The position numbers were made by a program, and so were the translations under genes. 64,000 nucleotides of DNA from Branchiostoma lanceolatum. Lineage: Eukaryota; Chordata; Leptocardii; Amphioxiformes; Branchiostomatidae. Numbering within the stretch: position 1 is the first letter of the stretch; each line of letters begins with the position of its first letter. The notes below the pieces were generated by a model. The model was not told the DNA's origin. It was given only the letters and a program-made list of their open reading frames with translations, and did no database searches. Location of the stretch: NCBI RefSeq assembly GCF_035083965.1, contig NC_089724.1, forward strand, positions 24,704,474-24,768,473, given 5' to 3'. This document shows, one piece after another, positions 1-60,224 of this stretch.

Positions 1-2590
1 TGCATCCTACCTTAATCCCCATCACTCACGTGCACCCCCTTCACTCCCATGCATTCCCATCACTCACGTGCACCCTCCTTCACTCCCATGCATCCTACCT
101 TAATACCCATCACTCCCCTGCACCCCCTTCACTCCTATGCATCCCATTCACTCACGTGCACCCTCCTTCACTCCTATGCATCCTACCTTAATCCCTATCA
201 CTCACGTGCACCCCCTTCACTCCCATGCATTCCCATCACTCCCCTGCACCCCCTTCACTCCTATGCATCCCCTTCACTCACGTGCACCCCCTTCACTCCC
301 ATGCATTCCCATCACTCACGTGCACCCTCCTTCACTCCTATGCATCCTACCTTAATCCCCATCACTCCCCTGCACCCTCTTCACTCCTATGCATCCCCAT
401 CACTCACATGCACCCCCTGCACTCCTATGCATCCCCTTCACTCACGTGCACCCTCCTTCACTCCCATGCATCCCCTTCACTCACGTGCACCCCCTTCACT
501 CCTATGCATCCCCTTCACTCACGTGCACCCTCCTTCACTCCTATGCATTCTACCTTAATCCCTATCACTCACGTGCACCCCCTTCACTCCCATGCATTCC
601 CATCACTCCCCTGCACCCCCTTCACTCCTATGCATCCCCTTCACTCACGTGCACCCCCTTCACTCCCATGCATTCCCATCACTCACGTGCACCCTCCTTC
701 ACTCCCATGCATACTACCTTAATCCCCATCACTCCCCTGCACCCTCTTCACTCCTATGCATCCCCATCACTCACATGCACCCCCTGCACTCCTATGCATC
801 CCCTTCACTCACGTGCACCCTCCTTCACTCCCATGCATCCCCTTCACTCACGTGCACCCCCTTCACTCCTATGCATCCCCTTCACTCACGTGCACCCTCC
901 TTCACTCCTATGCATCCTACCTTAATCCCTATCACTCACGTGCAACCCTTCACTCCCATGCATTCCCATCACTCCCCTGCACCCCCTTCACTCCTATGCA
1001 TCCCCTTCACTCACGTGCAACCCTTCACTCCCATGCATTCCCATCACTCACGTGCACCCTCCTTCACTCCCATGCATCCTTCCTTAATCCCCATCACTCC
1101 CCTGCACCCTCTTCACTCCTATGCATCCCCTCCACTCCTGTGCACCCTCCTTCTCTCCAGGACCTATGCATTCTCATCACTCACATGCACCCCCTGCACT
1201 CCTATGCATCCCCTTCACTCACGTGCACCCCCTTCACTCCCATGCATCCCCTTCACTCACGTGCACCCCCTTCACTCCTATGCATTCCCATCACTCACGT
1301 GCACCCTCCTTCACTCCCATGCATCCTACCTTAATCCCCATCACTCACGTGCACCCCCTTCACTCCTATGCATTCCCATCACTCACGTGCACCCTCCTTC
1401 ACTCCCATGCATCCTACCTTAATCCCCATCACTCACGTGCACCCCCTTCACTCCTATGCATTCCCATCACTCACGTGCACCCCCTTCACTCCCATGCATT
1501 CCCATCACTCACGTGCACCCTCCTTCACTCCTATGCATCCTACCTTAATCCCCATCACTCCCCTGCACCCTCTTCACTCCTATGCATCCCCATCACTCAC
1601 ATGCACCCCCTGCACTCCTATGCATCCCCTTCACTCACGTGCACCCTCCTTCACTCCCATGCATCCCCTTCACTCACGTGCACCCCCTTCACTCCTATGC
1701 ATCCCCTTCACTCACGTGCACCCTCCTTCACTCCTATGCATTCTACCTTAATCCCCATCACTCACGTGCACCCCCTTCACTCCCATGCATTCCCATCACT
1801 CCCCTGCACCCCCTTCACTCCTATGCATCCCCTTCACTCACGTGCACCCCCTTCACTCCCATGCATTCCCATCACTCACGTGCACCCTCCTTCACTCCCA
1901 TGCATACTACCTTAATCCCCATCACTCCCCTGCACCCTCTTCACTCCTATGCATCCCCATCACTCACATGCACCCCCTGCACTCCTATGCATCCCCTTCA
2001 CTCACGTGCACCCTCCTTCACTCCCATGCATCCCCTTCACTCACGTGCACCCCCTTCACTCCTATGCATCCCCTTCACTCACGTGCACCCTCCTTCACTC
2101 CTATGCATCCTACCTTAATCCCTATCACTCACGTGCAACCCTTCACTCCCATGCATTCCCATCACTCCCCTGCACCCCCTTCACTCCTATGCATCCCCTT
2201 CACTCACGTGCAACCCTTCACTCCCATGCATTCCCATCACTCACGTGCACCCTCCTTCACTCCCATGCATTCTAACTTAATCCCCATCACTCCCCTGCAC
2301 CCTCTTCACTCCTATGCATCCCCTCCACTCCTGTGCACCCTCCTTCTCTCCAGGACCTATGCATTCTCATCACTCACATGCACCCCCTGCACTCCTATGC
2401 ATCCCCTTCACTCACGTGCACCCCCTTCACTCCTATGCATCCCCTTCACTCACGTGCACCCTCCTTCACTCCCATGCATCCCAATCACTCAGGTGCATCC
2501 TGCTTCACTCCAATGCATCCCCATCACTCACATGCACCCCCTGCACTCCTATGCATCCCCTTCACTCACGTGCACCCTCCTTCACTCCTA
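1..2590 (+). repeat. Higher-order repeat copy 1 (2,590 bp)
   Basis: The 38-bp units are arranged in a 2,590-bp higher-order unit. Matching landmarks recur exactly 2,590 bp apart (49, 2639, 5229; 137, 2727, 5317). Inside each copy a marker, TTCTCTCCAGGACC, occurs twice: at 1151 and 2344 here, then 3741, 4934 and 6331. The spacings alternate 1,193 and 1,397 bp, so the unit is itself a diverged dimer. Copy 1 and copy 2 differ at only a few bases by eye. Confidence 0.9.
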
Positions 2591-5180
2591 TGCATCCTAC
2601 CTTAATCCCCATCACTCACGTGCACCCCCTTCACTCCCATGCATTCCCATCACTCACGTGCACCCTCCTTCACTCCCATGCATCCTACCTTAATACCCAT
2701 CACTCCCCTGCACCCCCTTCACTCCTATGCATCCCATTCACTCACGTGCACCCTCCTTCACTCCTATGCATCCTACCTTAATCCCTATCACTCACGTGCA
2801 CCCCCTTCACTCCCATGCATTCCCATCACTCCCCTGCACCCCCTTCACTCCTATGCATCCCCTTCACTCACGTGCACCCCCTTCACTCCCATGCATTCCC
2901 ATCACTCACGTGCACCCTCCTTCACTCCTATGCATCCTACCTTAATCCCCATCACTCCCCTGCACCCTCTTCACTCCTATGCATCCCCATCACTCACATG
3001 CACCCCCTGCACTCCTATGCATCCCCTTCACTCACGTGCACCCTCCTTCACTCCCATGCATCCCCTTCACTCACGTGCACCCCCTTCACTCCTATGCATC
3101 CCCTTCACTCACGTGCACCCTCCTTCACTCCTATGCATTCTACCTTAATCCCTATCACTCACGTGCACCCCCTTCACTCCCATGCATTCCCATCACTCCC
3201 CTGCACCCCCTTCACTCCTATGCATCCCCTTCACTCACGTGCACCCCCTTCACTCCCATGCATTCCCATCACTCACGTGCACCCTCCTTCACTCCCATGC
3301 ATACTACCTTAATCCCCATCACTCCCCTGCACCCTCTTCACTCCTATGCATCCCCATCACTCACATGCACCCCCTGCACTCCTATGCATCCCCTTCACTC
3401 ACGTGCACCCTCCTTCACTCCCATGCATCCCCTTCACTCACGTGCACCCCCTTCACTCCTATGCATCCCCTTCACTCACGTGCACCCTCCTTCACTCCTA
3501 TGCATCCTACCTTAATCCCTATCACTCACGTGCAACCCTTCACTCCCATGCATTCCCATCACTCCCCTGCACCCCCTTCACTCCTATGCATCCCCTTCAC
3601 TCACGTGCAACCCTTCACTCCCATGCATTCCCATCACTCACGTGCACCCTCCTTCACTCCCATGCATCCTTCCTTAATCCCCATCACTCCCCTGCACCCT
3701 CTTCACTCCTATGCATCCCCTCCACTCCTGTGCACCCTCCTTCTCTCCAGGACCTATGCATTCTCATCACTCACATGCACCCCCTGCACTCCTATGCATC
3801 CCCTTCACTCACGTGCACCCCCTTCACTCCCATGCATCCCCTTCACTCACGTGCACCCCCTTCACTCCTATGCATTCCCATCACTCACGTGCACCCTCCT
3901 TCACTCCCATGCATCCTACCTTAATCCCCATCACTCACGTGCACCCCCTTCACTCCTATGCATTCCCATCACTCACGTGCACCCTCCTTCACTCCCATGC
4001 ATCCTACCTTAATCCCCATCACTCACGTGCACCCCCTTCACTCCTATGCATTCCCATCACTCACGTGCACCCCCTTCACTCCCATGCATTCCCATCACTC
4101 ACGTGCACCCTCCTTCACTCCTATGCATCCTACCTTAATCCCCATCACTCCCCTGCACCCTCTTCACTCCTATGCATCCCCATCACTCACATGCACCCCC
4201 TGCACTCCTATGCATCCCCTTCACTCACGTGCACCCTCCTTCACTCCCATGCATCCCCTTCACTCACGTGCACCCCCTTCACTCCTATGCATCCCCTTCA
4301 CTCACGTGCACCCTCCTTCACTCCTATGCATTCTACCTTAATCCCCATCACTCACGTGCACCCCCTTCACTCCCATGCATTCCCATCACTCCCCTGCACC
4401 CCCTTCACTCCTATGCATCCCCTTCACTCACGTGCACCCCCTTCACTCCCATGCATTCCCATCACTCACGTGCACCCTCCTTCACTCCCATGCATACTAC
4501 CTTAATCCCCATCACTCCCCTGCACCCTCTTCACTCCTATGCATCCCCATCACTCACATGCACCCCCTGCACTCCTATGCATCCCCTTCACTCACGTGCA
4601 CCCTCCTTCACTCCCATGCATCCCCTTCACTCACGTGCACCCCCTTCACTCCTATGCATCCCCTTCACTCACGTGCACCCTCCTTCACTCCTATGCATCC
4701 TACCTTAATCCCTATCACTCACGTGCAACCCTTCACTCCCATGCATTCCCATCACTCCCCTGCACCCCCTTCACTCCTATGCATCCCCTTCACTCACGTG
4801 CAACCCTTCACTCCCATGCATTCCCATCACTCACGTGCACCCTCCTTCACTCCCATGCATTCTACCTTAATCCCCATCACTCCCCTGCACCCTCTTCACT
4901 CCTATGCATCCCCTCCACTCCTGTGCACCCTCCTTCTCTCCAGGACCTATGCATTCTCATCACTCACATGCACCCCCTGCACTCCTATGCATCCCCTTCA
5001 CTCACGTGCACCCCCTTCACTCCTATGCATCCCCTTCACTCACGTGCACCCTCCTTCACTCCCATGCATCCCAATCACTCAGGTGCATCCTGCTTCACTC
5101 CAATGCATCCCCATCACTCACATGCACCCCCTGCACTCCTATGCATCCCCTTCACTCACGTGCACCCTCCTTCACTCCTA
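2591..5180 (+). repeat. Higher-order repeat copy 2 (2,590 bp)
   Basis: Second copy of the 2,590-bp unit, near-identical to copy 1. One difference is the TTAA variant at about 4858-4867, which reads CTACC where copy 1 (about 2268-2277) reads CTAAC. Confidence 0.9.
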
Positions 5181-6613
5181 TGCATCCTACCTTAATCCCC
5201 ATCACTCACGTGCACCCCCTTCACTCCCATGCATTCCCATCACTCACGTGCACCCTCCTTCACTCCCATGCATCCTACCTTAATACCCATCACTCCCCTG
5301 CACCCCCTTCACTCCTATGCATCCCATTCACTCACGTGCACCCTCCTTCACTCCTATGCATCCTACCTTAATCCCTATCACTCACGTGCACCCCCTTCAC
5401 TCCCATGCATTCCCATCACTCCCCTGCACCCCCTTCACTCCTATGCATCCCCTTCACTCACGTGCACCCCCTTCACTCCCATGCATTCCCATCACTCACG
5501 TGCACCCTCCTTCACTCCTATGCATCCTACCTTAATCCCCATCACTCCCCTGCACCCTCTTCACTCCTATGCATCCCCATCACTCACATGCACCCCCTGC
5601 ACTCCTATGCATCCCCTTCACTCACGTGCACCCTCCTTCACTCCCATGCATCCCCTTCACTCACGTGCACCCCCTTCACTCCTATGCATCCCCTTCACTC
5701 ACGTGCACCCTCCTTCACTCCTATGCATTCTACCTTAATCCCTATCACTCACGTGCACCCCCTTCACTCCCATGCATTCCCATCACTCCCCTGCACCCCC
5801 TTCACTCCTATGCATCCCCTTCACTCACGTGCACCCCCTTCACTCCCATGCATTCCCATCACTCACGTGCACCCTCCTTCACTCCCATGCATACTACCTT
5901 AATCCCCATCACTCCCCTGCACCCTCTTCACTCCTATGCATCCCCATCACTCACATGCACCCCCTGCACTCCTATGCATCCCCTTCACTCACGTGCACCC
6001 TCCTTCACTCCCATGCATCCCCTTCACTCACGTGCACCCCCTTCACTCCTATGCATCCCCTTCACTCACGTGCACCCTCCTTCACTCCTATGCATCCTAC
6101 CTTAATCCCTATCACTCACGTGCAACCCTTCACTCCCATGCATTCCCATCACTCCCCTGCACCCCCTTCACTCCTATGCATCCCCTTCACTCACGTGCAA
6201 CCCTTCACTCCCATGCATTCCCATCACTCACGTGCACCCTCCTTCACTCCCATGCATCCTACCTTAATCCCCATCACTCCCCTGCACCCTCTTCACTCCT
6301 ATGCATCCCCTCCACTCCTGTGCACCCTCTTTCTCTCCAGGACCTATGCATTCTCATCACTCACATGCACCCCCTGCACTCCTATGCATCCCCTTCACTC
6401 ACGTGCACCCCCTTCACTCCCATGCATCCCCTTCACTCACGTGCACCCCCTTCACTCCTATGCATTCCCATCACTCACGTGCACCCTCCTTCACTCCCAT
6501 GCATCCTACCTTAATCCCCATCACTCACGTGCACCCCCTTCACTCCTATGCATTCCCATCACTCACGTGCACCCTCCTTCACTCCCATGCATCCTACCTT
6601 AATCCCCATCACT
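5181..6613 (+). repeat. Higher-order repeat copy 3 (partial)
   Basis: The third copy follows the first two until about 6613, where it switches to different 38-bp variants. It carries one of the two TTCTCTCCAGGACC markers, at 6331. The break marks the edge of the homogenised array. From here to 8690 the units are more varied. Confidence 0.85.
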
Positions 6614-8785
6614 CCCCTGCACCCTCTTCACTCCTATGCATCCCCTTCACTCCTGTGCACCCTCCTTCACTCCTATGAATTCCCATCACTCACCTGCACC
6701 CCCTTCACTCCCATACATCCCCTTCACTCACGTGCACCCCTTCACTCCTATGCATCCCCTTCACTCACGTGCACCCTCCTTCACTCCTTTGCATCCTACC
6801 TTAATCCCCATCACTCACGTGCACCCTCTTCACTCCCATGCATCCCCTTCACTCACGTGCACCCCCTTCACTCCTATGCATCCCCTTCACTCACGTGCAC
6901 CCTCCTTCACTCCTATGCATCCTACCTTAATCCCCATCACTCACGTGCAACCCTTCACTCCCATGCATTCCCATCACTCACGTGCACCCTCCTTCACTCC
7001 CATGCATCCCCTTCACTCACGTGCACCCCCTTCACTCCTATGCATCCCCTTCACTCACATGCACCCTCCTTCACTCCTATGCATCCTACCTTAATCCCTA
7101 TCACTCACGTGCACCCCCTTCACTCCCATGCATTCCCATCACTCCCCTGCACCCCCTGCACTCCTATGCATCCCCATCACTCCCGTGCACCCTCCTTCAC
7201 TCCTATGCATCCCCATAACTCACCTGCACCCCCTTCACTCCTATGCATCCACATCACTCAGGTGCATCCTCCTTCACTCCTATGCATCCCCATCACTCAC
7301 ATGCACCCCCTTCACTCCTATGCATCGCCATCACTCAGGTGCATCCTCCTTCACTCCTATGCATTCCCATCACTCACCTGCACCCCCTTCACTCCTATGC
7401 ATTCCCATCACTCACATGCACCCTCCTTCACTCCTATGCATCCTACCTTAATCCCCATCACTCCCCTGCACCCCCTTCAGTCCTATACATCCTACCTTAA
7501 TCCCCATCATTCACCTGTACCCCCTTCACTCCCTTCACTCCCATGCATTCCCATCACTCCCCTGCACCCCCTTCACTCCTATGCATCCTACCTTAATCCC
7601 CATCACTCCCCTGCACCCTCCTTCACTCCTATGCATCCCCATCACTCCCGTGCACCCTCCTTTACTCTTATGCATTCCGATCACTCTCATGCACCCCCTT
7701 CACTCCTATGCATTCCCATCACTCTCGTGCACCCCCTTCACTCCTATGCATTCCCATCACTCTCGTGCACCCCCTTCACTCCCATGCATTCCCATCACTC
7801 CCCTGAACCCCCTTTACCCCTATGCATCCCCTTCACTCACGTGCACCCTCCTTCACTCCCATGCATCCCCTTCAATCACATGCACCCCCTGCACTCCTAT
7901 GCATCCCCATCACTCCCGTGCACCCTCCTTCACTCCCATGCACCCCCTTCACTCTCATGCACCCCCTTCACTCCTATGCATTCCCATCACTCTCGTGCAC
8001 CCCCTTCACTCCCATGCATCCTACCTTAATCCCCATCACTCACATGCACCCCCTTCACTCCCTTCACTCCCATGCATTTCCATCACTCACCTGCACCCCC
8101 TTTACCCCTATGCATCCCCTTCACTCACGTGCACCCTCCTTCACTCCCATGCATCCCCTTCAATCACATGCACCCCCTGCACTCCTATGCACCCCCTTCA
8201 CTCACGTGCACCCTCCTTCACTCCCATGCATCCCGATCACTCTCATGCACCCCCTTCACTCCTATGCATCCCCTTCACTCACGTGCACCCTCCTTCACTC
8301 CTATGCATCCTACCTTAATCCCCATCACTCCCCTGCACCCCCTTCAGTCCTATGCATCCTACCTTAATCCCCATCATTCACCTGCACCCCCTTCACTCCC
8401 TTCACCCCCATGCATTCCCATCACTCCCCTGCACCCCCTTCACTCCTATGCATCCTACCTTAATCCCCATCAGTCCCCTGCACCCTCCTTCACTCCTATG
8501 CATCCCCATCACTCCCGTGCACCCTCCTTTACGCTTATGCATCCCGATCACTCTCATGCACCCCCTTCACTCCTATGCATTCCCATCACTCTCGTGCACC
8601 CCCTTCACTCCCATGCATTCCCATCACTCACGTGCACCCCCTTCACTCCCATGCATTCCCATCACTCACGTGCACCCCCATCACTCATGTATAACCTACT
8701 TCATTACCTATTATTGAGTTCTTTCAATACCAGATGATTAGTGATGTTACGTTGATGAAAGTTAGACATCCAGGTAGTAAGATAC

Positions 8786-9044
8786 GCCAAAAATGATTAC
8801 TCAAGCAACTGGATAAAGTTTTGAAACAGTTAGACGTTTCAGACAGCATCCACTGTCTGTCGTCAGTGACTAACGATAGGACTGAGAACACCAGTTTTTG
8901 TACCAAAACTCTGAATAGGTATGTTAATGAGGTTAAGACAATTTAGGATGTCTTGAAGTAGTCTTTAAAAGAAGATTAATTCAAGACAAAGTTTTGTGCC
9001 AATAGTTCAATTAGCTACTGTTGATTTTAGTACAGTAACTAAAT
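8786..9044 (-). repeat. Left inverted arm of the Penelope-like element
   Basis: Reverse complement of 9205-9463 with few differences. Together the two arms could form a 259-bp stem with a loop of about 160 nt. Confidence 0.9.
8827..8872 (-). ncRNA. Hammerhead ribozyme motif, left arm (probably weakened)
   Basis: On the minus strand the core CTGACGA (8860-8866) is followed by a helix II hairpin (AGACAG/CTGTCT) and GAAACGTC. One helix I pair is broken relative to the right-arm copy, because TAAC faces GTCA. Activity is therefore less likely here than at 9377-9422. Confidence 0.5.
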
Positions 9045-9048
9045 CCTA

Positions 9049-9210
9049 GATCGTGAAGAACGCTGGTTCGAACGGGGAATTAGAGAAGCAATTTATGAGA
9101 GGATGTACAACCCCGCCCTCAACAGGAAAGGGGGTCTACGCGTTGAACTTTCAGGCACTTGGGATAATGTGCTGACCACCACCCCCCACCCCCGGACGAA
9201 CAACATTTAG
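9049..9210 (+). pseudogene. GIY-YIG endonuclease C-terminal remnant (Penelope-like)
   Basis: The frame starting at 9049 reads DREERWFERGIREAIYERMY, then NPALNRKGGLRVELSGTWDN, with the stop at 9208-9210. The pattern ExxWFxRGxxEAIxER..NPxLNRxGG..LSxxWD is the C-terminal end of the GIY-YIG type tail found in many invertebrate reverse transcriptase proteins. No upstream catalytic GIY or YIG residues and no reverse transcriptase remain, because the left arm begins directly before it. It is a coding fossil. Confidence 0.75.
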
Positions 9211-9463
9211 TTACTGTACTAAAATCAACAGTAGCTAATTGAACTATTGGCACAAAACTTTGTCTTGAATTAATCTTCTTTTAAAGACTACTTCAAGACA
9301 TCCTAAATTGTCTTAACCTCATTAACATACCTATTCAGAGTTTTGGTATAAAAACTGGTGTTCTCAGTCCTATCGTTAGTCACTGACGAAAGACAGTGGA
9401 TGCTGTCTGAAACGTCTGACTGTTTCAAAACTTTATCCAGTTGCTTGAGTAATTATTTTTGGC
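9205..9463 (+). repeat. Right inverted arm of the Penelope-like element
   Basis: Inverted partner of 8786-9044. It follows the coding remnant, as a 3' terminal repeat would, and holds the better-preserved hammerhead motif. Confidence 0.9.
9377..9422 (+). ncRNA. Type I hammerhead ribozyme motif with minimal helix III
   Basis: The conserved core is present: CTGACGA (9383-9389, fits CUGANGA) and GAAA (9409-9412). Helix II is a perfect 6-bp hairpin, AGACAG (9391-9396) with CTGTCT (9403-9408). Helix I pairs TAGTCA (9377-9382) with TGACTG (9417-9422). Helix III is only the palindrome ACGT (9412-9415), so a single molecule has no closing loop, but two copies can pair through it. Cleavage would fall after C9416. 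One extra A (9390) lies between the core and helix II. Minimal helix III hammerheads acting as dimers are known in Penelope-like elements. Activity of this copy is inferred, not shown. Confidence 0.65.
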
Positions 9464-9477
9464 GATTAGTGATGTTA

Positions 9478-10170
9478 TCATCGGCTATTGGAGTGTGTGA
9501 AAGCTCAGATCAGATAAAAGTTTGCTTCCTTACATAAAAGCTTGTTACAATATGTCTGCTGTTTAGACGGCCTTTTTTTACCAATACTTACAGCTATTTT
9601 GTGTAGGAATATTTCAGTGCTTTTACTATTCAGGGCAATGCGGTAAGTTTGTTTGCTTCAATCGATAAACTGCCATTGCATAAGAAGTAACAGACACCTG
9701 TGCAGTTAAGTTTCAGCTGCCTAAGATTAGACTGTATAAGTGTAAGGTGCGATTGACTCACATTTGGATGGACACCTACTCTATTCAATGACTGTGGTGG
9801 GTTCACTTTTCTTATGTGCTCTCCACGCGAGACATCATACAGGTGTATTAAAAAAGCGTGTTTTCTTCGACTGAGACACCATACAGGTGAGATATGTGTG
9901 TTTGTACAGGTGAGTCGGAGCGTTTTCCTTTATGTAGGGACCAAGAAAGATAACTTAAAAGTGAGGTAGGTTTGTTCTCTTTCACTGGAGCCCAGGTAAG
10001 ACTTTGTGCTGGCACAACTTTAAACAAGTGTGTCTTCTTGCCTAAGGTTCATATGACACACCGCACAGGTGAGAGAGGTGTCTGGTATTAAACTGGCACC
10101 ACTTGAGACACCATAAAGGTGCTATACGTTTGGTTTCTTTGACTAGTTGAGAAAGGTGTTATCTTTCACT
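9478..10170. other. Spacer between retroelement and satellite block 2
   Basis: No gene is visible. Positions 9825-10170 contain loosely repeated phrases such as GAGACACCATACAGGTG followed by a TTTTCTTNGACTG-like tail, at irregular intervals of roughly 50-80 bp. This is a degenerate tandem repeat unrelated to the 38-bp satellite. Confidence 0.5.
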
Positions 10171-13100
10171 GGGGTACATGTGAGTGATGGGGATTAAGGT
10201 AGGATGCATTGGAGTGAAGGAGGGTGCACGTGAGTGAAGGGGATGCATAGGAGTGAAGGGGGTGCACGTGAGTGAAGGGGATGCATGGGAGTGCAGGGGG
10301 TGCACGTGAGTGAAGGGGATGCATAGGAGTGAAGGGGTGCACGTGAGTGAAGGGGATGCATGGGAGTGAAGGGGGTGCACGTGAGTGATAGGGATTAAGG
10401 TAGGATGCATAGGAGTGAAGGAGGGTGCACGTAAGTGATGGGGATGCATAGGAGTGAAGGGGGTGCAAGGGAGTGATAGGGATGTATAGGAGTGAAGGGG
10501 GTGCACGTGAGTGAAGGTGATGCATAGGAGTGAAGGGGGTGCACGTGAGTAATGGGGATGCATAGGAGTGAAGGGGGTGCACGTGAGTGATGGGAATGCA
10601 TGGGAGTGAAGGAGGGTGCACGTGAGTGATGGGGATGCAATAGGAGTGAAGGGGGTGCACGTGAGTGATGGGAATGCATGGGAGTGAAGGGGTGCACAGG
10701 AGTGAAGGGGATGCATAGGAGTGAAGGGGGTTCAGGGGAGTGATGGGTATTAAGGTAGGATGCATAGGAGTGAAGGAAGGTGCACGTAAGTGATGGGGAT
10801 GCATAGGAGTGAAGGGGGTGCAAGGGAGTGATAGGGATGTATAGGAGTGAAGGGGGTGCACGTGAGTGAAGGTGATGCATAAGAGTGAAGGAGGGTGCAC
10901 GTGAGTGATGGGAATGCATGGGAGTGAAGGGGGTGCATGTGAGTGATGGGGATGCATAGGAGTGAAGGGGGTGCACGTGAGTGATGGGAATGCATAGGAG
11001 TGAAGGAGGGCGCACGTGAGTGAAGGGGATGCATAGGAGTGAAGGGGGTGCACGTGAGTGAAGGGGGTGCATGGGAGTGAAGGAGGGTGCACGTGAGTGA
11101 AGGGGGTGCATAGGAGTGCAGGGGGTGCATGTGATTGAAGGGGATGCATGGGAGTGAAGGAGGGTGCACGTGAGTGAAGGGGATGCATAGGGGTAAAGGG
11201 GGTGCATGTGAGTGATGGAAATGCATGGGAGTGAAGGGGGTGCACGTGAGTGATGGGAATGCATGGGAGTGAAGGGGGTACACGAGAGTGATGGGAATGC
11301 ATAGGAGTGAAGGGGGTGTATGAGAGTGATCGGAATGCATAAGAGTAAAGGAGGGTGCACGGGAGTGATGGGGATGCATAGGAGTGAAGGAGGGTGCAGG
11401 GGAGTGATGGGGATTAAGGTAGGATGCATAGGAGTGAAGGGGGTGCAGGGGAGTGATGGGAATGCATGGGAGTGAAGGGAGTGAAGGGGGTGCAGGTGAA
11501 TGATGGGGATTAAGGTAGGATGCATAGGAGTGAAGGGGGTGCAGGGGAGTGATGGGGATTAAGGTAGGATGCATAGGAGTGAAGGAGGGTGCACGTGAGT
11601 GATGGGAATGCATAGGAGTGAAGGGGGTGCAGGTGAGTGATGGGAATGCATAGGAGTGAAAGAGGATGCACCTGAGTGATGGGGATGCATAGGAGTGAAG
11701 GGGGTGCATGGGAGTGATGGGGATGCATAGGAGTGAAGGAGGATGCACCTGAGTGATGTGGATGCATAGGAGTGAAGGGGGTGCAGGTGAGTTATGGGGA
11801 TGCATAGGAGTGAAGGAGGGTGCACGGGAGTGATGGGGATGCATAGGAGTGAAGGGGGTGCAGGGGAGTGATGGGAATGCTTGGGAGTGAAGGGGGTGCA
11901 CGTGAGTGATAGGGATTAAGGTAGGATGCATAGGAGTGAAGGAGGGTGCACGTGAGTGAAGGGGATGCATAGGAGTGAAGGGGGTGCACGTGAGTGAAGG
12001 GGATGCATGGGAGTGAAGGAGGTGCACGTGAGTGAAGGGGATGCATGGGAGTGAAGGGGGTGCACGTGAGTGATGGGGATTAAGGTAGGATGCATAGGAG
12101 TGAAGGAGGGTGCAGGTGAGTGAAGGGGATGCATAGGAGTGAAGGGGGTGCACGTGAGTGAAGGGGATGCATGGGAGTGAAGGGGGTGCACGTGAGTGAT
12201 GGGGATTAAGGTAGGATGCATAGGAGTGAAGGAGGGTGCACGTGAGTGAAGGGGATGCATAGGAGTGAAGGGGTGCACGTGAGTGAAGGGGATGTATGGG
12301 AGTGAAGGGGGTGCAGGTGAGTGATGGGAATTCATAGGAGTGAAGGAGGGTGCACAGGAGTGAAGGGGATGCATAGGAGTGAAGAGGGTGCAAGGGAGTG
12401 ATGGGGATTAAGGTAGGATGCATGGGAGTGAAGGAGGGTGCACGTGAGTGATGGGAATGCATGGGAGTGAAGGGGGTGCACGTGAGTGATGGGGATTAAG
12501 GTAGGATGCATAGGAGTGAAGGAGGGTGCAGGTGAGTGAAGGGGATGCATAGGAGTGAAGGGGGTGCACGTGAGTGAAGGGGATGCATGGGAATGAAGGG
12601 GGTGCACGTGAGTGATGGGGATTAAGGTAGGATGCAAAGGAGTGAAGGAGGGTGCACGTGAGTGAAGGGGATGCATAGGAGTGAAGGGGTGCACGTGAGT
12701 GAAGGGGATGTATGGGAGTGAAGGGGGTGCAGGTGAGTGATGGGAATTCATAGGAGTGAAGGAGGGTGCACAGGGGTGAAGGGGATGCATAGGAGTGAAG
12801 AGGGTGCAAGGGAGTGATGGGGATTAAGGTAGGATGCATGGGAGTGAAGGAGGGTGCACGTGAGTGATGGGAATGCATAGGAGTGAAGGGGGTGCACGTG
12901 AGTGAAGGGGATGCATGGGAGTGAAGGAGGGTGCACGTGAGTGAAGGGGATGCATAGGAGTGCAGGGGGTGCATGTGAGTGATGAGAATGCATAGGTCCT
13001 GGAGAGAAGGAGGGTGCACAGGAGTGAAGGGGATGCATAGGAGTGAAGAGGGTGCAGGGGAGTGATGGGGATTAAGGTAGGATGCATGGGAGTGAAGGAG

Positions 13101-14400
13101 GGTGCACGTGAGTGATGGGAATGCATTGGAGTGAAGGGTTGCACGTGAGTGAAGGGGATGCATAGGAGTGAAGGGGGTGCAGGGGAGTGATGGGAATGCA
13201 TGGGAGTGAAGGGGGTGCACGTGAGTGATAGGGATTAAGGTAGGATGCATAGGAGTGAAGGAGGGTGCACGTGAGTGAAGGGGATGCATAGGAGTGAAGG
13301 GGGTGCACGTGAGTGAAGGGGATGCATGGGAGTGAAGGAGGGTGCACGTGAGTGAAGGGGATGCATAGGAGTGCAGGGGGTGCATGTGAGTGATGGGGAT
13401 GCATAGGAGTGAAGAGGGTGCAGGGGCGTGATGGGTATTAAGGTAGGATGCATGGGAGTGAAGGAGGGTGCACGTGAGTGATGGGAATGCATAGGAGTGA
13501 AGGGGGTGCACGTGAGTGAAGGGGATGCATAGGAGTGAAGGGGGTGCAGGGGAGTGATGGGAATGCATGGGAGTGAAGGGGTGCACCTGAACGATAGGGA
13601 TTAAGGTAGGATGCATAGGAGTGAAGGAGGGTGCACGTGAGTGAAGGGGATGCATAGGAGTAAAGGGGGTGCACGTGAGTGAAGGGGATGCATGGGAGTG
13701 AAGGAGGGTGCACGTGAGTGAAGGGGATGCATAGGAGTGCAGGGGGTGCATGTGAGTGATGGGGATGCATAGGAGTGAAGAGGGTGCAGGGGAGTGATGG
13801 GGATTAAGGTAGGATGCATAGGAGTGAAGGAGGGTGCACGTGAGTGATGGGAATGCATGGGAGTGAAGGGGGTGCACGTGAGTGAAGGGGATGCATAGGA
13901 GTGAAGGGGGTGCAGGGGAGTGATGGGAATGCATGGGAGTGAAGGGGGTGCACGTGAGTGATAGGGATTAAGGTAGGATGCATAGGAGTGAAGGAGGGTG
14001 CACGTGAGTGAAGGGGATGCATAGGAGTGAAGGGGGTGCAGGGGAGTGATGGGTATCAAGGTAGGATGCATGGGAGTGAAGGAGGGTGCACGTGAGTGAT
14101 GGGAATGCATGGGAGTGAAGGGGGTGCACGTGAGTGATGGGGATTAAGGTAGGATGCATAGGAGTGAAGGAGGGTGCACGTGATTGAAGGGGATGCATAG
14201 GAGTGAAGGGGGTGCACGTGAGTGAAGGGGATGCATGGGAGTGAAGGAGGGTGCACGTGAGTGAAGGGGATGCATAGGAGTGCAGGGGGTGCATGTGAGT
14301 GATGGGGATGCATTGGAGTGAAGCAGGATGCACCTGAGTGATTGGGATGCATGGGAGTTAAGGAGGGCGCACTTGGGTGATGGGAATTCTAGGAGTGAAG
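10171..14400 (-). repeat. Satellite block 2: the same 38-bp repeat in inverted orientation
   Basis: The same 19+19-bp units as block 1 run on the minus strand. The order of variants mirrors block 1. The string at minus 12462 matches plus 6548, and minus 11429 matches plus 7581. Both sums equal 19010, so the mirror axis is at 9505. One CTCTCCAGGACC-type marker is present at about 12994-13008. Open frames up to 570 codons on the minus strand have the same artefactual origin as in block 1. The block ends sharply near 14400. Confidence 0.93.
11916..12790 (-). repeat. 416-bp tandem duplication within satellite block 2
   Basis: Two consecutive stretches (starting at minus 12374 and minus 12790) carry the same unusual variants, including GAATTC in place of GCATTC, 416 bp apart. 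Block 1 has this segment only once (around 6636). The copy number changed after the inverted duplication arose. Confidence 0.75.
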
Positions 14401-15358: not shown

Positions 15359-18300
15359 TCAATGCAGCAGAGTCCTCCCCAGTTCGGACTTGAACTGGGC
15401 GAGGCACTCTGCCTCCACCGCACCAGGCTCTAAATCATTCCATTCCCTGATGGAGCGCGGGAAAAAGGAGAGCCTGTAGAAGTTGCTCTTGCTCGCGATG
15501 GCCTGCAGAGTTTGTGTGTGATTGGTGCGGCGGGAGCATCGAGCCACCTGGAGGAGCCTGGTTGAGTGTAGGACGGAGATGATGTTATTAATGATCTTAT
15601 AAAGAGTAACCTGGCGGGCAATTTTCCTTCTCAATTCTAGGGTTTGCCAGCCCAGGTTATCCAGCATGGCTGAAACAGAACTTGTGCGTCTGTAGTCGCT
15701 AAGTACATACCGGGCAGCTCGTCGTTGTACACTCTGCACCCTTCTCACCTGGTCCTTGGTATGAGGGTCCCACACGCTGCAGCTGTACTCAAGGGTTGGT
15801 CTTACAAGGGCCATGTAGGCCCTACCCTTCACCGCTGTGCTGGAGATCCTCAGGCAGCGTCGCAACATTCCAAGGGTCCTGTTTGCCTTGGAGGTTATTG
15901 ATTCGACATGCTTACCCCAGGTTAGGTTTGCAGAGATGGAGATACCAAGGTACTTTGTGTTACTCACCTTTGCTAGGGGATGACCGTGTAAAGTGTAAGT
16001 AAATGAGACAGGGTTTCTAGAGCAGGGGACTGACATGACTTCACATTTTGAGGGATTGAAGGCCATCAGCCATTTATTCTCATACACTGATATCGTCAAT
16101 GTCGTGTTGTAATTTCTCACAGTCGTCCCTGTTCCTGATGCCCATCTACAGGATGCAATCATCGGCGAAGAGTCGTACCTTTGCATATGCAGAGTGTTTA
16201 GGAAGGTCATTTATGTATGCCAGGAAGAGAATTGGGCCCAAGACTGTACCTTGGGGAACACCCGAGGTCACTGGCACTGGGTCCGAGGATTCTCCCTCTA
16301 GCACTACGGTTTGTGAGCGGCCTTGCAGGAAATTCTGGATCCAGACAAGTGTTTTACCTGTAATACCATAAAACTGGAGTTTGTGTATTAGTCTAAGATG
16401 CGGAACTTTATCAAAAGCTTTGGCGAAGTCCATTATAATAAGGTCAGTCTGGATCCTGTTTTCCCTGTTGTATGCCAGGTCATCAGTAAGAGAAATGAGT
16501 TGAGATTCGCATGATCTACCTCGTCTGAACCCATGTTGAAGGTCGTACAGGATGTTATTTGTATCAAAATGTGTCATCATAGTACTCGCTATAATGTGTT
16601 CCATGATCTTTGAACAGATGCATGTCAAGGAAATGGGTCTGTAGTTGGCAGGGTCAAGTCGGTTTCCTTTCTTGTAAATTGGGGCAATGTTGGCCTCCTT
16701 CCAGGCCTCCGGCACGCAGCCGGTTTCAAGACTTTTCTGGAAGATCACCTGGAGGAAGGGGCTTATAGTGGAGCTAAGTTCCTTGAGGACACATGCGTGG
16801 ACGTGGTCCGGTCCACATGCTTTATGGGGGTTCAAGTTGTCTAATAGGGTCTTAATACCGTTTACATTTATGCAAATATCGGACATAGCTGGGTGCGGGC
16901 TAGGCCCCATGTCAGGTAGGGGGTCCTCTACAGGTTCGGATGTAAAGACAGACTGGGATTGTGTATTTAGAAGGTTGGCCTTGGCCTTGCTGTCGGAAAC
17001 AAGTCTCCCTTCGTTTTTGAGCTGAGTGACCCCGATTTGTTCGGATTTCTGGCTTTTAAGGAAACTCCAGAGTTTTTTGGTACCTTGCTTACCTTGTTCG
17101 GGGTCGAGGTCAAGCACTACTTCCTCAATGTACTGCCAGTAGCACTCTTTCATTTTCTTGTTTATTTCCTTTTTAAAGTTGGTGAGTTTTTCTTTCCTTT
17201 CTGGTGTTTTTAGGTTTATTATTTTTCTGTAGAAGCGGTCCCTCTTTCTCATTAGGCGTTTGAGTTCGGGAGTCATGTATGGTAGGTGTTTCTTATTACC
17301 GGACATCTTTGTGGGGACGTACTTGTCAACACAGTTTGATAGTTTAGAGGTGAACCTATTATATAGGTCATCTACTGAGGTTTCGCCTTCGGATAGTTCT
17401 ATGAATTCTGTCCTGAAGTCATCCATTTCATCACGGAACTTATCCCATTCAGAACGTTTGTACAGGTAGATTTTGCGGGGTTTGGCCTTTTGTTTCTTGG
17501 GTCTCAAGTCTGCCTCAACAGACACTATATCGTGGTCGCCAATGGGAGGTAAAGTGCGAACACAGGTGACACAGTTATCGTTTGACATGACTACAAGGTC
17601 AAGAGTATTATCATACCTGGTGGGCTTGTCTACTACCTGGGCCATGTTGTAGTCACTCAGCAGTTCTAAGAACTGGCGGTGTAGACCTGGGTAGGGACAG
17701 CCTGGCTTAAGTATAGGCTGCTGGGGGTCTGCCCAGTCCCAGCCTGGGAAGTTGAAATCGCCAATAGGCAATAATCCATACGTGATTGTTACGTTTATTA
17801 CATATGCGTTCCATGGATTGTTCTAGGCAGTCAAGACTGATGCTATCCCCTACTTGAGGTCTATAGTAGGCACATATGTTTAAACATTTAGACCCGACAA
17901 GTTCTATCTTAACCATACCATTTCACAATTTGTTTCAAGTTGTGGTTCTTGGGTACAAAGAAATTCGTTAGAAACTGCTATAAGCACGCCTCCATGATTG
18001 TCGTCCTGTCTGCTTTTGTAGAACACTTGCATGTTGAGGTAGCTTGGGAAATATTCAGCAATATTACATGAGCTATCTAACCAGGTCTCTGTAATTACCA
18101 GAATGTCAGGTTTAGTCTCCTCTACTAGGGTTTCCAGTTCTACTTTCTTGTTCCTAAGCGATTGGAAGTTTGCATTTATAAGGCGCAATGGCCTAGCGTG
18201 GGACCTTGGTTTGTTTTGGTTAGGGAGTTTCGGGGAGGATGCAGCCTGGGGGATTCCTGGGCTGGCATCGCTTAAAGGACTGAACGGGTTGGGGGACGAC

Positions 18301-18479
18301 AGGTCACCAGAGGCAGAAAAGAATGAGGTGGACAGGTTGGGCAAACCACAGTTCAAGCAAATCCATGATACATTGGAGTTACTTAAAAAGGGGTACATGT
18401 ATGAGCTTACGCCCTGACAGTCATGGTGGAACCAAAAATCACAGTTGTCACAGCATACTGCTTTCTGTTTGAAAGTCAC
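15359..18479 (-). mobile_element. CR1-type non-LTR retrotransposon, frame-broken
   Basis: Reading from 18479 downward, the protein begins with a Cys/His-rich PHD-like finger (CCDNCDFWFHHDC). It continues into an exonuclease-endonuclease-phosphatase domain (LINANFQSLRNK, ITETWLDSS, then [10 protein letters not shown] near 17760) and a reverse transcriptase ([35 protein letters not shown]). It ends with the usual C-terminal region (LEYSCSVWDPHTKDQVRRVQ) and a stop at 15359. This order is that of CR1/Jockey-group elements, which encode copy-and-paste retrotransposition by target-primed reverse transcription. The frame is broken near 17910 and 17740. A TAG interrupts the text directly after FADDCIL (16146-16148), and one more shift lies near 16100. 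The copy is nearly full length for its second ORF but inactive as given. Confidence 0.9.
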
Positions 18480-36341: not shown

Positions 36342-38036
36342 CTAATCTGTTCCTGAGTAGATATTTTCCTTATCCCAGAAGTCACACTTTTCTTGGTTAT
36401 AGTCATGAACTATAACGTTCTGGGGAGTGGTGAAGTTCATGTTGGGGAACTGGTTTTCTTCGTTGTACTTTGGCCAGTTCAATGGTGACTTCAGGACATC
36501 GCCCGTGGTGTAGACATACGGACTGGGTTTGTTAGGGTCCCCCGTGTGTGCGAAGTTACCATAGTGGTACGCCATGGTGTCGGCCATTACTTGCTCGTCA
36601 GGGGTGAAGCTCAAGTTTAAAATTAGATTTGTTTGAAACACGAACGGAATGTCTTCACCGTGACAGACGTGGCCATTGCAGTAGTCGTAGTCGTGCCAAA
36701 GCGTCTTAAAGGACCAGACGTGATCAAAGACGTACAGCCAGACGTCGCCTTCACCATTTGCGACTGCGTTTCGGACGGCATTTCGGGTTGGACATTCAAA
36801 GACCCAGTCTGTCACGGCCTGAGACAAAAACGGGCGATAGTCTGATGTTTGTGGCGGGTTGTACTCATGAAGAACTGCCGGTCCTTTTCCACGGAGAAAG
36901 GCCAAAGCAGCCGCGTCTAACTCAAGTTTAGAGATAGGCTTAGTAAAGGCCCCATAAATATACAGGACAGATTCTTCCCGTACAGTGCCTATGATGAACG
37001 GTTTTCTCTGAAACTGCCCCTTTGCAAAACTATCTACAGTTTGTCTAGGTAAAACATCACCATCTACTGCAGGGCCCCATTGAAGAAATATTTCCAGGAG
37101 GCGAAAGGGGTTAGCTATGTAAATACCCACTTCATATTGAGCGTGAAGAATGTCATCAGCTGTCCTGGAGCGAAGGCACTTCATGTCCCCGGCAGAACAG
37201 TTCGCGAGCTTGGTGAAGTCATTCCCGAGACGAATGGCTTCCAATTGTGTCTTGTGAGTGATGGAGAACGGCACGCTCAGCATGATGCCCTGGTGGAACA
37301 GGTGCGCCGCCCTATCGGATGTCAGGAGAACTGCAACCGAATCGGACCCGGCGCTCTGTCCGAAAATGGTGACTTTGTCCTTGTCTCCGCCGAAGTCAGC
37401 GATGTTCTGTTGGACCCACTTTAGCGCCTCGATCTGATCTAATGTCCCATAGTTCCCCCTTGCGTCGTCTTCTCCCTCACCGGTCACAAGGTAACCGAAG
37501 ACCCCAAGTCTGTAGTTGGTCGTCACGATGACGGTGTTGGTTTTGTTGGCCAAAATCCGCCCATCGTACACCATAGCGGCGCCAGTGCCCGCGTGATAGT
37601 CTCCGCCATGAAACCAACACAGAACAGGTAGCCTGACAGCAGTAGAGTTCAGAACGGATCTGGGCACGAAAACGTTCAGATACAGACAGTCTTCGCTCTG
37701 CGTTCTAGCTTTGTCGCGGTTACAATCGTGATGATAGTCGGTGATGTTCGGTCCGCACCCTATTTGTCGGCACGCCGGGCCCGGTACGGTGCCGTCGCGG
37801 ACTTCGGGCGCCCAGGACGTGTTGTACGCCCGAGGAGGCTTCCAGCGCAGCTCGCCTACCGGCGGGACCCCGAACGGGAGCCCGAGGAAGATGGCTCCTT
37901 CCTCCACGTACATGCCCCGCACGTCTCCATACTGTGTCCGAACGATCGGACCGTCCGGTTTCGTCAGTACAGCGGCGTACCCAACGAAAACAAGGGCTGC
38001 GAAGACCAAGAGTCGAGAGAACGTTGTTGCCGCCAT
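36342..38036 (-). CDS. Secreted type-B carboxylesterase, intronless, 564 aa
   Basis: An alpha/beta-hydrolase of the carboxylesterase/cholinesterase family, hydrolysing ester bonds. Start chosen at the ATG of MAATTFSRLLVFAALVFVGY, a clear signal peptide. The open frame extends four codons upstream but without another ATG. The oxyanion HGG is at 144-146. The nucleophile elbow GQSAG puts Ser at 228, the acid is Glu355 in TVREES, and His459 lies in CHGEDIPFVF. The EDCLYLNVF signature is at 115-123. N-glycosylation sites such as NTS and NIT are frequent. There is no C-terminal membrane anchor or tetramerisation tail, so it is probably soluble and exported. An intronless gene is unusual in the family and suggests a retrocopy, but the frame is intact. 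Which substrate it uses cannot be said. Confidence 0.93.
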   Translation of the reverse strand: MAATTFSRLLVFAALVFVGYAAVLTKPDGPIVRTQYGDVRGMYVEEGAIFLGLPFGVPPVGELRWKPPRAYNTSWAPEVRDGTVPGPACRQIGCGPNITDYHHDCNRDKARTQSEDCLYLNVFVPRSVLNSTAVRLPVLCWFHGGDYHAGTGAAMVYDGRILANKTNTVIVTTNYRLGVFGYLVTGEGEDDARGNYGTLDQIEALKWVQQNIADFGGDKDKVTIFGQSAGSDSVAVLLTSDRAAHLFHQGIMLSVPFSITHKTQLEAIRLGNDFTKLANCSAGDMKCLRSRTADDILHAQYEVGIYIANPFRLLEIFLQWGPAVDGDVLPRQTVDSFAKGQFQRKPFIIGTVREESVLYIYGAFTKPISKLELDAAALAFLRGKGPAVLHEYNPPQTSDYRPFLSQAVTDWVFECPTRNAVRNAVANGEGDVWLYVFDHVWSFKTLWHDYDYCNGHVCHGEDIPFVFQTNLILNLSFTPDEQVMADTMAYHYGNFAHTGDPNKPSPYVYTTGDVLKSPLNWPKYNEENQFPNMNFTTPQNVIVHDYNQEKCDFWDKENIYSGTD

Positions 38037-38049
38037 ATCTAAAATCACC

Positions 38050-39327: not shown

Positions 39328-43391
<4,064 letters not shown>

Positions 43392-48734: not shown

Positions 48735-48800
48735 TTTGCCCAAAATAGTTACTCAAACAACTGGATAAAATTTTCACAAACAGTCAGACGTTTGAGACAT
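48735..48800 (-). mobile_element. Penelope-like terminal repeat fragment
   Basis: AGTTACTCAAACAACTGGAT and CAGTCAGACGTTTGAGACA match the left arm at 8795-8845 with substitutions. The hammerhead core (CTGANGA) has been lost beyond the break, so it cannot be active. Confidence 0.65.
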
Positions 48801-48995
48801 ATTAATTGACATCTGTATTTGTAATACGTCAGGCATTAAGGTTAACATGAAGTTAAGACATGTCATCATACCACATTGCCGATCAGGTGTAAAGCTATCT
48901 CTCTACTATCTAGTAGCCTTTAAAACTCCATGTTTCTCCTTCCAAGGAGTTTCACTGACGTGTTTGAACCTCGATCTATTCCTACCCTGAGGCCC

Positions 48996-56174: not shown

Positions 56175-59100
56175 ATGGCTGTAAATTTGATGGTAAAGTT
56201 CTATCTAGTGTTAGTTGTACGTCTGACAGTGCCGTGTGTAGAGGCAGGGGACTGGCAACACTGTCAGAAGGTATCACAGGAGAGATGTAGTGTTGGCGAC
56301 AGTAGCTATGAAGGATCGCAGTCTGAATACCGGCATGACACTGGCGTGTACAAGTCCAGGTGGAACAAAGGCCCATATAGTTACCAAGGGCCTTTCAATA
56401 GCATCAATGTATACCCAAGCTTCATGTCCTGCTACAGCTGTGCAGGAAGTGTATCAGGTAGCTCTGTCGCAGGTGAAGTCCAGAGTGTCACCCTGAGTCC
56501 CTCCCAACGGGACATCACCGTTATGATACTTGTCATAGCCGATCACAACGTTGGCACATTGAATACAGGTGACACCACCGCAGTCTCTAAGATACCATGT
56601 GGTACAGAGTGTAGCGTATGGCTCGTAAACTGTAACATAACAACCATAGAGGTAGGCGCGTTTGCTAAGCTTCCACAGGTGAAGACGCTGGTCATCTGGC
56701 GGAGCAACCTTCAGACCCTGAAACACGGCGTGTTTGAGGGGATGGAAGGCCTCGAAGACCTGGCTCTACTAGAGAACAACATAACCTGTCTGGAGGTTAG
56801 TTCACCGCACGCACGTATGGTATAAAACGACTTGTTAGATCTCGAGTGACAGACTATAGACAGAGTTTCATTGCATTACTTTGTGTTTATTACAGTTACC
56901 ATCAAAATGAATTACATAATAATAATAAGTTTATTGCAAGTTCTTGCCCGTAGGCTAATTGCAAGTACATGTAACATGAAAGGACGGACAGACAATTGAT
57001 AACAATATAGCATGACTTTTCTAGTCTAAATAATAACACTAAATTCTGGTTTGGGTTTGACTTCTTTTTCCGAGACAGTGGAAGACGAATGATCCCACTT
57101 TTTCTATGATGTGTGGGTTTTGTAATGTTAAGAGGAGAGTAGTTTTCTTGTCTGTTAACTTGGAGAAATTTGGATGGAATTTGGTGGCCTCCTGAAACAG
57201 CGCCTTTCTTTCTTGATCGTAGAAGGGGCAACTTGAACAAGTCACGGCATTTTCAATGTATCTACAACAACATTGATAGGTTAAGGATATTTATCATTCT
57301 CAGTTTGTCATAAAAGCTGTCGCAAAAGCTATATCTTGCTGGCTAGGTTTGAATACTTTTATTACCTCCATAAAAATGGAGGTTATATTTTCAGTGGGGT
57401 TTGTCTGTGTGTCTGTAAACAAGATAACTCAAGAACGGCCAGACGGATTGGTTTCGTATTATTCGGAAATGTGAATATGTTGCGCACAAATTATACTAGT
57501 GAGCAGGTTTGTAAGTTAGTTAAAGATGGCCATTTCAATGCAAAAGAAATTATACAAATTCAAAATATTTCATGGAGGTATGAGATCGCCGAACTCTAGT
57601 TTTCAAACCCGTTTTAAAGTGGTCTAAAACACTACTTTTATATGATAGGCTGGTGCCTTCGACGGCTTGCCATTGTTGATGTCCCTCTATCTCGTGGACA
57701 ACCAAATCCTGACGATGGCTCCCGACATGCTGCGTGGACTACAGCTGAGCTGGCTGGACGTAAGTATAAATTCTATCTGGTACATAGCACCTGGGGTACT
57801 GCAGGAAACGCAGTCTGTGCGAAGTATCTATCTCTTAGAGAACAAGCTTCAGTCAGTCAGCGTGGAAATGTTTGCTAAGCTTGTAAACATGCAGGTCTTG
57901 CACTTGGAGTACAACGAAATCTCTTGGATTGCAGATGGCGCATTCCAGTCAAATAAGCAACTGGGTGTGCTTAATTTGGTGGGCAACAAGCTGACCTATC
58001 TATCAGGGCTTTGGATCAAACAGGCGACCAACCGAATCCTAGTGGATCTTAAGGGAAATGCTATAGCCGCTGCCTATCTGGGAAGAATGAGTCAGAGGTT
58101 GAATGTTCGAATTCCCGACAATCCACTTCGTTGTACTGGTGCGAACATTGGGTTGTATGAACATCTGTTTAGGCGCTGGAAATCCCGGTTAGGGCCTCCT
58201 CCTCGATATTCCAAGATGTCCCTTCAGGGTGTCCCGCCTCATCCTTAATGGAAATTCCTGCTGTACCGGTAAACGTTAGCGCCCTACCCTGCCCGGCACC
58301 ATTTGTGGAGATCCTAAACGTAGTACAAAATCATGAGTCACCGGAATACAGAGTCGTTGGTAACGTGTACTGGGAGGAACTGCCCCAAGTGTCCTGGACC
58401 TTTCCCAATAGATCAGAACACTCAATGAACTTAACGTTCAACACAAACACAACGACACACGCCAGTCTGGCAATAGGCAACCTAACTGTGAGGGTGGGGA
58501 CCTACCTAAGGGCTGAGGGGTGGACAAAATGTAACATGAAGGATCTTGATATCGGGGAACCCGGGAAACAGACCGCATGTTCTAACTACATGGGGAGGTC
58601 AAGCTTCACTCTTTGGCTTGAGGGTTCGGGGACTTTGGCATTGAGGAACACACTATGTACTGCTTCCTCGGCTGGTGGGTATTACGCAACCAACCTTGAG
58701 GTATCAAACGACACGCACATGTCACATTTTCACATAACACAACGTCTCACTACAACAGCGCTCCCACTGATGAGCACAGTACAACATCGTGCTACAACAC
58801 GCCAAACAACAGCGCCCTCAACGATCAGTATCAGCACGAGTGTCGATAGATACAACAATGTCATGTGGTATATTTGGGTTGCAGCCACTGTTGGACTTTT
58901 GTTGGTTATGAAGGTAGTTTGGGAATATTTCAGGTGTGTGAAAGTTAAGCTCTGTCCTATCGCTAGAGATGATAGTGCACAACAACCCCTTGGTGTCCGT
59001 GCGGTCATTGTCTGCTCCAACTGGCCTGTCGGAGATCACGACAGGTCGGGCGAGTCAGTCATCAGTCCTTACGCGGAAGGTCGTTTTGAAGACCACGACA

Positions 59101-60224
59101 GTTTGGATGAATCAGAATCAGTCATCAGCCCATACGCTGAAGGTCGTTTTGCAGACCACGACAGTTTGCGTGGCACAGATTCTTCTGTCTCTTCAGACGT
59201 TGTCCCTTACGGACAAGCAGCGCTGTGTGCAGCTTACGTAAAGCGTGATCGAAGCAGTTACGAAAATACTAGCACGGGAAATTCAAATGTATCCGATCAA
59301 AACTGCTACAACCACCTTTCCATTCCCCCCAACCTGGGCGCCGCCCAGTCCTCTGCCTACCAGCAGCGTAGTAGCTACGAAAATACTAGCGCCGGAAATA
59401 CAAGCATGTCCGACCAAAACTGCTACCAGCACCCTTCCATTCTCCCCAACCCGGGCGCCGCCCAGTCCTCTGCCTACCAGCAGTGTAGTAGTTACGAAAA
59501 TACTAGCGCCGGAAATTCCAACATGTCCGACCAAAACTGCTACCAGCACCCTTCCATTCTCCCCAACCCGGGCGCCACCCAGTCCTCTGCCTACCAACAG
59601 CGTAGTAGTTACGAAAACACTAGCGCCGGAAATTCCAACATGTCCGACCAAAACTGCTACCAGCACCCTTCCATTCTCCCCAACCTGGGCGCCACCCAGT
59701 CCTCTGCCTACCAACAGCGTAGTAGTTACGAAAATACTAGCGCCGGAAATTCCAACATGTCCGACCAAAACTGCTACCAGCACCCTTCCATTCTCCCCAA
59801 CCCGGGCGCCACCAAGTCCTCTGCCTACCAGCAGCGTAGTAGTTACGAAAATACTAGCGCCGGAAATTCCAACACGTCCGACCAAAACTGCTACCAGCAC
59901 CCTTCCATTCTCCCCAACCCGGGCGCCGCCAAGTCCTCTGCCTACCAACAGCGTAGTAGTTACGAAAATACTAGCGCCGGAAATTCCAACACGTCCGACC
60001 AAAACTGCTACCAGCACCCTTCTATTCTCCCCAACCCGGGCGCCACCAAGTCCTCTGCCTACCAGCAGAGTGATGATCCTATCCCCGCTGCGCAAAGTTC
60101 TCGCGACTCGCCCTGCTATAACTCAGCTGCTGTGGCACCTGACGTAGAACGTACCCTGTCCAACACATATGTCCAACATGACCCCAAGGTAAAACAGTCT
60201 TCAGCCCCGCAGAATCCCCCGTAG
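56175..60224 (+). CDS. LRR receptor 2 with seven tyrosine-motif repeats in its tail, 2 exons, one frameshift
   Basis: A type I membrane receptor of about 1,065 residues. Exon 1 (56175-56795) gives the signal peptide MAVNLMVKFYLVLVVRLTVP, a Cys-containing N-terminal region and LRRs (LVIWRSNLQTLKHGVFEGME). Exon 2 (57649-60224, phase 0) continues the LRRs (LYLVDNQILTMAPDML, LHLEYNEISWIADGAF) to the cap NPLRCTGAN. The juxtamembrane part has N-glycosylation sites and an Ig-like VSWTFP. The membrane helix is WYIWVAATVGLLLVMKVVW (about 58865-58920). The tail has a duplicated SVISPYAEGRF, then seven 39-residue repeats (residues about 742-1014) with SSYENTS and CYQHPS. The frame shifts near 58216, where TATTCCAAG probably should be TATTTCCAAG. 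SH2-dependent signalling is inferred from the motifs. Confidence 0.83.
56930..57250 (-). mobile_element. LINE 3'-end fragment in LRR receptor 2 intron
   Basis: Minus strand from 57245: TCSSCPFYDQERKALFQEAT then KFHPNFSKLTDKK, a typical C-terminal Cys-rich end of a LINE reverse transcriptase protein. The last part has lost frame. The 3' end reads TTAGCCTACGGGCAAGAACT followed by TTATTATTAT. The element is 5' truncated. The same tail lies at 39008-39090. Confidence 0.6.
59250..60068 (+). repeat. Seven coding 117-bp tandem repeats
   Basis: Seven exact 117-bp units encode RSSYENTSAGNSNMSDQNCY followed by QHPSILPNPGATQSSAYQQ. The first unit is the most diverged (STGNSNVSDQ, NHLSIPPN). Units 3-7 are almost identical. 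The repeat keeps long open frames in two other frames, which are shadows. Confidence 0.97.

Follow-up and report, generated by a model that had tools for sequence, protein, structure and literature searches.

A minimal hammerhead motif, probably silent, at an open reading frame start in a broken Penelope-like insertion of Branchiostoma lanceolatum

Introduction

Penelope-like elements (PLEs) are retrotransposons for which the relevant section of a curation guide lists inverted pseudo-long terminal repeats (pLTRs) and short 3' extensions as features (PMC8969392). In the anole element the open reading frame (ORF) begins at stem II of a hammerhead ribozyme, and no cleavage by this ribozyme is seen without the element's protein (PMC11167929). 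The anole enzyme cuts and extends both strands, and priming occurs internally at two adjacent sites in the RNA, the interval between the sites forming the tail (PMC11167929). A tail of 30–40 bp is retold in part of the same paper for Penelope of D. virilis. According to the sections of PMC7761336 on which we draw, PLEs carry minimal type I hammerheads that lack helix III and may cleave in dimeric form, and what the PLE hammerhead does is unknown. Here we analyze a hammerhead motif at positions 9377–9422 (+) of a 64,000-nucleotide window of Branchiostoma lanceolatum (GCF_035083965.1, contig NC_089724.1, positions 24,704,474 to 24,768,473, forward strand), lying in an insertion that reads as a broken, 5'-truncated PLE copy.

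We interpret the locus as a minimal type I hammerhead that lies in the pLTR of a Penelope-like retrotransposon and overlaps the ORF start codon, in a dead copy with inverted pLTRs where the ribozyme is probably silent. The probability of this reading is put at roughly 0.8.

Results

The 46-base motif was read directly from the letters of the + strand. Its core consists of CTGACGA (9383–9389) and GAAA (9409–9412). Helix II pairs AGACAG (9391–9396) with CTGTCT (9403–9408) over 6 bp around a TGGATG loop, and helix I pairs TAGTCA (9377–9382) with TGACTG (9417–9422), also over 6 bp including one T-G wobble. The cleavage triplet is GUC, with the cut predicted after C9416. The CUGANGA and GAAA core, an NUH triplet, the A15.1-U16.1 pair and helices I and II are thus all present, and 9377–9422 is a real hammerhead motif. 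These letters are as the original prediction had given them, as is the single extra A (9390) between A9 of the core and helix II. De la Pena and Flores reportedly described in 2001 a natural viroid hammerhead with an extra core nucleotide, said to lie beside A9. An extra adenine in the part of PMC12531169 consulted is an addition to a three-adenosine core, apparently at a place other than 9390, and was not used as support.

Helix III is reduced to the palindrome ACGT (9412–9415), without a loop. By standard numbering the last A of GAAA pairs with the U of GUC, so that helix III would be A-C followed directly by G-U. Within one molecule A9412-C9413 adjoins G9414-U9415, leaving no room for a loop, and this 4-bp ACGU helix could therefore form only between two molecules, bearing out the earlier claim that two copies would be needed. 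A descriptor that required 4 bp or more in helices I and II and tolerated up to 2 extra bases after CTGANGA, run over both strands of the window, returned 9377–9422 (+) as its sole match.

The insertion carrying the motif spans 8736–9477, or 742 bp with both target duplications counted. From left to right it comprises a 14-bp duplication, a 35-bp tail, an inverted 260-bp pLTR, a 3' fragment of the ORF and a direct 260-bp pLTR that has no tail. The left target-site duplication, GATTAGTGATGTTA (8736–8749), has an exact 14-bp copy at 9464–9477, where G9464 is common to the duplication and the arm end. The tail (8750–8784, −) lies between duplication and arm at the left end only and continues the ORF to codon 33. 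The left arm (8785–9044, −) is 260 nt long and differs by 4 mismatches from the reverse complement of the right arm (9205–9464, +), which starts with ATT (9205–9207). As a loose control, pairs of points were picked at random between 20 and 60 kb, and 11 of 5000 such pairs had a shared word of at least 14 bp nearby (maximum 20), a figure that counts repeats merely near both points and not, as at 8736–9477, abutting both ends.

Both ends of the ORF are represented. Its 3' end (9045–9210, +; about 55 codons, in the frame ILDREERWFERGIREAIYERMYNPALNRKGGLRVELSGTWDNVL...) closes at the TAG at 9208–9210, just inside the right arm at its inner end. We read this translation, which had no database match, as the putative C-terminus of a PLE GIY-YIG endonuclease; in PLEs this enzyme follows a telomerase-like reverse transcriptase on its C-terminal side. 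The start, MLSETSDCFKTLSSCLSNYFW (9400–9463, +), has its ATG in loop II of the hammerhead, and the predicted cut falls 17 nt after the A of this codon. From ATG 9400 the frame has no stop over the 65 nt to the end of the arm; on the left arm it stays open across the tail as well, for 100 nt or 33 codons. Inverted pLTRs, a short target duplication and a tail at one end only are all present, and the setting reads as the pLTR of a 5'-truncated, broken PLE copy. If so, the motif occupies the place of minimal PLE hammerheads, in a pLTR at the ORF start. The Penelope-like setting had already been proposed in the original prediction; the duplication, the tail, the start codon inside the ribozyme and the stop codon at the arm's inner end reinforce it.

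The opposite arm holds a second copy of the hammerhead (8827–8872, −). It has C in place of the extra A, and a G-to-A change in helix I creates a C-A mismatch, because of which the descriptor above missed it. A decayed third pLTR copy of the same PLE family was located at 48738–48925 (−) by blastn (62 bp, 87.1%, E 3.7e-15), nhmmer (E 1.2e-8 for 48890–48732) and alignment, and retains CTGACG and AAACGTCTGACTG. The two arms differ at 4 of 259 compared positions, and the third copy has the right-arm letter at 4/4, although one of them, 9390, is poorly aligned there. On this comparison the left arm, helix I mismatch included, looks derived and the right arm looks the less decayed copy. Two further candidates were not counted. 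For a possible tail of the third copy, with 8 bases in common (TCATCAAC), 27% of 2000 shuffles reached the score. An endonuclease (EN)-like piece at 41022–41093 gave blastn 27 bp with E 0.001 and nhmmer E 0.017, but its local alignment score was 48, where 200 shuffles averaged 40 and reached at most 63. A DNA pattern search of viral contigs gave 16 loci, and the hammerhead descriptor, with helices I and II set to 4 bp or more, had no match in an uncounted share of these.

From the directly observed sequence, placement at the ORF start and terminal structure of this one insertion, we infer how it may have arisen. The element's enzyme would have cut both target strands 14 bp apart. From each cut end, reverse transcription would then have started within the element RNA, at a site that gave the tail in one case and no tail in the other, and the two DNAs would have joined inside the ORF to leave a dead, 5'-truncated copy with inverted pLTRs. 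Such priming from both cut strands predicts ends at two different internal positions, as seen here. We give even odds to the insertion being a natural footprint of such both-strand priming by a Penelope enzyme. One strand would then have started at the inner site and the other 35 nt beyond it on the RNA; the cDNAs would have met where the ORF borders the pLTR, with fill-in of the 14-bp stagger.

Alternatively, an inversion, a gene conversion or a fold-back repair event after insertion may have produced the inverted arms, without any priming from the two target strands. In support of this, the satellite around the insertion is also inverted, which marks the region as prone to inversion, and self-priming is favored for head-to-head palindromes of Adineta vaga elements in the portion of PMC3846280 cited. 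Both outer ends here nevertheless abut the 14-bp duplication with a tail at one end only, and inverting one pLTR at a later time would not in itself set the tailed end beside the duplication. We regard this origin of the arms as somewhat unlikely, though it deserves consideration beside both-strand priming.

Several results weigh against assigning the motif to a PLE-borne hammerhead. Rfam returned 0 matches over the whole window at the gathering score and, at E up to 10 in 8700–9650, 4 matches, none from a hammerhead family. By its own wording, the covariance-model check proposed with the original prediction thus counts against it; we attribute the miss to models that expect helix III, which the motif lacks. 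The strongest of the four was Group-II-D1D4-2 at 9392–9503 (21.7 bits against a gathering score of 36, E 0.052); this and the three weaker matches are sub-threshold and were taken as chance. The ORF fragment 9045–9210 matched no Pfam model at E up to 10 and no PDB sequence, and the reverse transcriptase domain of the element is missing from 8736–9477, having been truncated away. A search of viral contigs with the endonuclease peptide gave 38 pattern stretches and no confirmed relative. The third pLTR copy lacks helices I and II in the form found here. Folding predictions point the same way: the isolated 46-mer favors a rod at −18.2 kcal/mol, compared with −12.5 for the hammerhead pairs alone, and within the pLTR alone the pair probability of helix I is 0.02–0.03 (0.51–0.75 for helix II).

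These energies describe secondary structure only, ignoring tertiary contacts and protein, and the whole-element fold refers to the + strand. The rod pairs core GACG (9385–9388) with CGUC (9413–9416); keeping only the core open gave −14.0 kcal/mol. Double hammerheads reached −23.3 (right with right), −9.9 (left with left) and −16.6 kcal/mol (right with left), each less stable than the best duplex of the same pair (−40.5, −36.9 and −38.7 kcal/mol, respectively). The whole element folds as a hairpin of ~260 bp that buries the motif (−502.7 kcal/mol, z −52.9 against 20 shuffles). The original prediction had looked to the mirrored arm for a second copy. That copy does exist on the other strand, weakened by its C-A mismatch, but is not supported as a pairing partner. 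A dimer within one RNA needs two sense copies, and each strand carries one sense and one antisense copy, with no second sense copy in tandem; the antisense copy pairs over ~260 bp in the + strand fold. Rescue in cis by the mirrored arm was therefore rejected.

That the ribozyme nonetheless works at this locus, with transcripts of either strand cleaving at 9416/9417 alone or when paired with an opposite-strand transcript, appears quite improbable. The right-arm motif has all core letters and complete helices I and II, and sits in what seems the less decayed arm. Set against this are the lack of a second sense copy, the near-complete pairing with the antisense arm, the rod favored by the monomer and the helix I mismatch of the left copy. 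With an antisense copy on the same strand and no second sense copy, the hammerhead is probably inactive in this insertion.

A motif that resembles a hammerhead merely by chance or through coding constraint could explain the missing covariance-model match, and the motif is partly coding sequence. A stricter descriptor, tolerating no more than 1 extra base and requiring 5 bp or more in helices I and II, returned the same single match in the window and 1 match in 400 dinucleotide shuffles of it, a figure that flatters the motif because the descriptor was written after the motif was seen. The motif also stands where PLE hammerheads are known (PMC11167929), and resemblance alone is very unlikely. 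A non-autonomous animal retrozyme in place of a PLE is hardly credible. A repeat of about 260 bp carrying a type I hammerhead would suit one, but the retrozymes of animals in the cited part of PMC7229834 consist of non-coding units of about 150–450 bp in tandem, with canonical type I hammerheads; here there is no tandem, and the end and start of an ORF flank the pLTR.

The insertion is flanked by arrays of a 19-bp unit with a 38-bp higher period, at about 1–8690 and about 10160–14360, in opposite orientation. Satellite arms reach 1015 nt at 97% complementarity with several different mirror centers, and so do not form one simple fold-back. Degenerate repeats with ACAGGTGAG-like words occupy 9872–10135; to us these words recall C2H2 zinc-finger linkers. 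Pieces of a retrotransposon of the long interspersed nuclear element (LINE) type lie at 15359–18479 (−), with RVT_1 at E 5.7e-26 in ORF 16146–17771, and the neighboring ORFs are presumably parts of the same element. A carboxylesterase-type gene is found at 36342–38048 (−; COesterase, E 8e-113). The region 57667–60224 (+) contains a leucine-rich-repeat ORF (LRR_8, E 2e-28) and, after it, an ORF holding about seven nearly identical repeats, across which overlapping frames also hold long ORFs.

Discussion

In intact tandem copies, transcripts would be cleaved by the hammerhead described here 17 nt into the ORF; neighboring pLTRs might form a dimer paired through ACGU, or the element's protein might assist. 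In the present copy the ribozyme is locked in an inverted repeat, and at such loci the motif alone is no warrant for activity. The insertion is otherwise ordinary mobile-element debris, a new copy of an already known kind. Its exact 14-bp duplication beside one tailed and one untailed end offers a testable case for both-strand priming. If true, such priming would lend in vivo support to the in vitro result on the anole enzyme, and would explain the frequent PLE copies with inverted pLTRs and a one-sided tail.

Minimal PLE hammerheads (Cervera and de la Pena 2014; Lunse et al. 2017), as presented in the sections cited of PMC7761336 and PMC6466107, resemble the motif in having no helix III loop, a palindromic helix III and a location in the pLTR. 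Those published act between tandem pLTRs, whereas the pLTRs here are inverted, and the motif differs from them further in its one extra base after CTGACGA.

The Penelope families of Adineta vaga share the inverted pLTRs around a 5'-truncated ORF and the short target duplication, on the passages of PMC3846280 used here. In the same passages, one inverted pLTR optionally carries a 31-bp tail (35 bp here, left only), the pLTR holds the first 12 codons of the ORF, or 22 with the tail (33 through the tail here), and target duplications measure 8–10 bp (14 bp here). The main text of that paper nowhere uses the word hammerhead.

Comparison with PAc, the Poseidon PLE of Anolis carolinensis, extends to several positions along the element (PMC11167929). 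The PAc endonuclease prefers ATT near the ORF-pLTR junction, and the arm here starts with ATT. Its ribozyme cut site lies 26 bp after the start codon, compared with 17 nt after the A of ATG here, and priming occurs 111–118 bp into the ORF, where the arm and tail here end at 65 and 100 nt. Unlike PAc, the copy described here is a fragment with inverted pLTRs; like PAc, it has a hammerhead at the ORF start and a tail that would correspond to the interval between two internal priming sites (PMC11167929).
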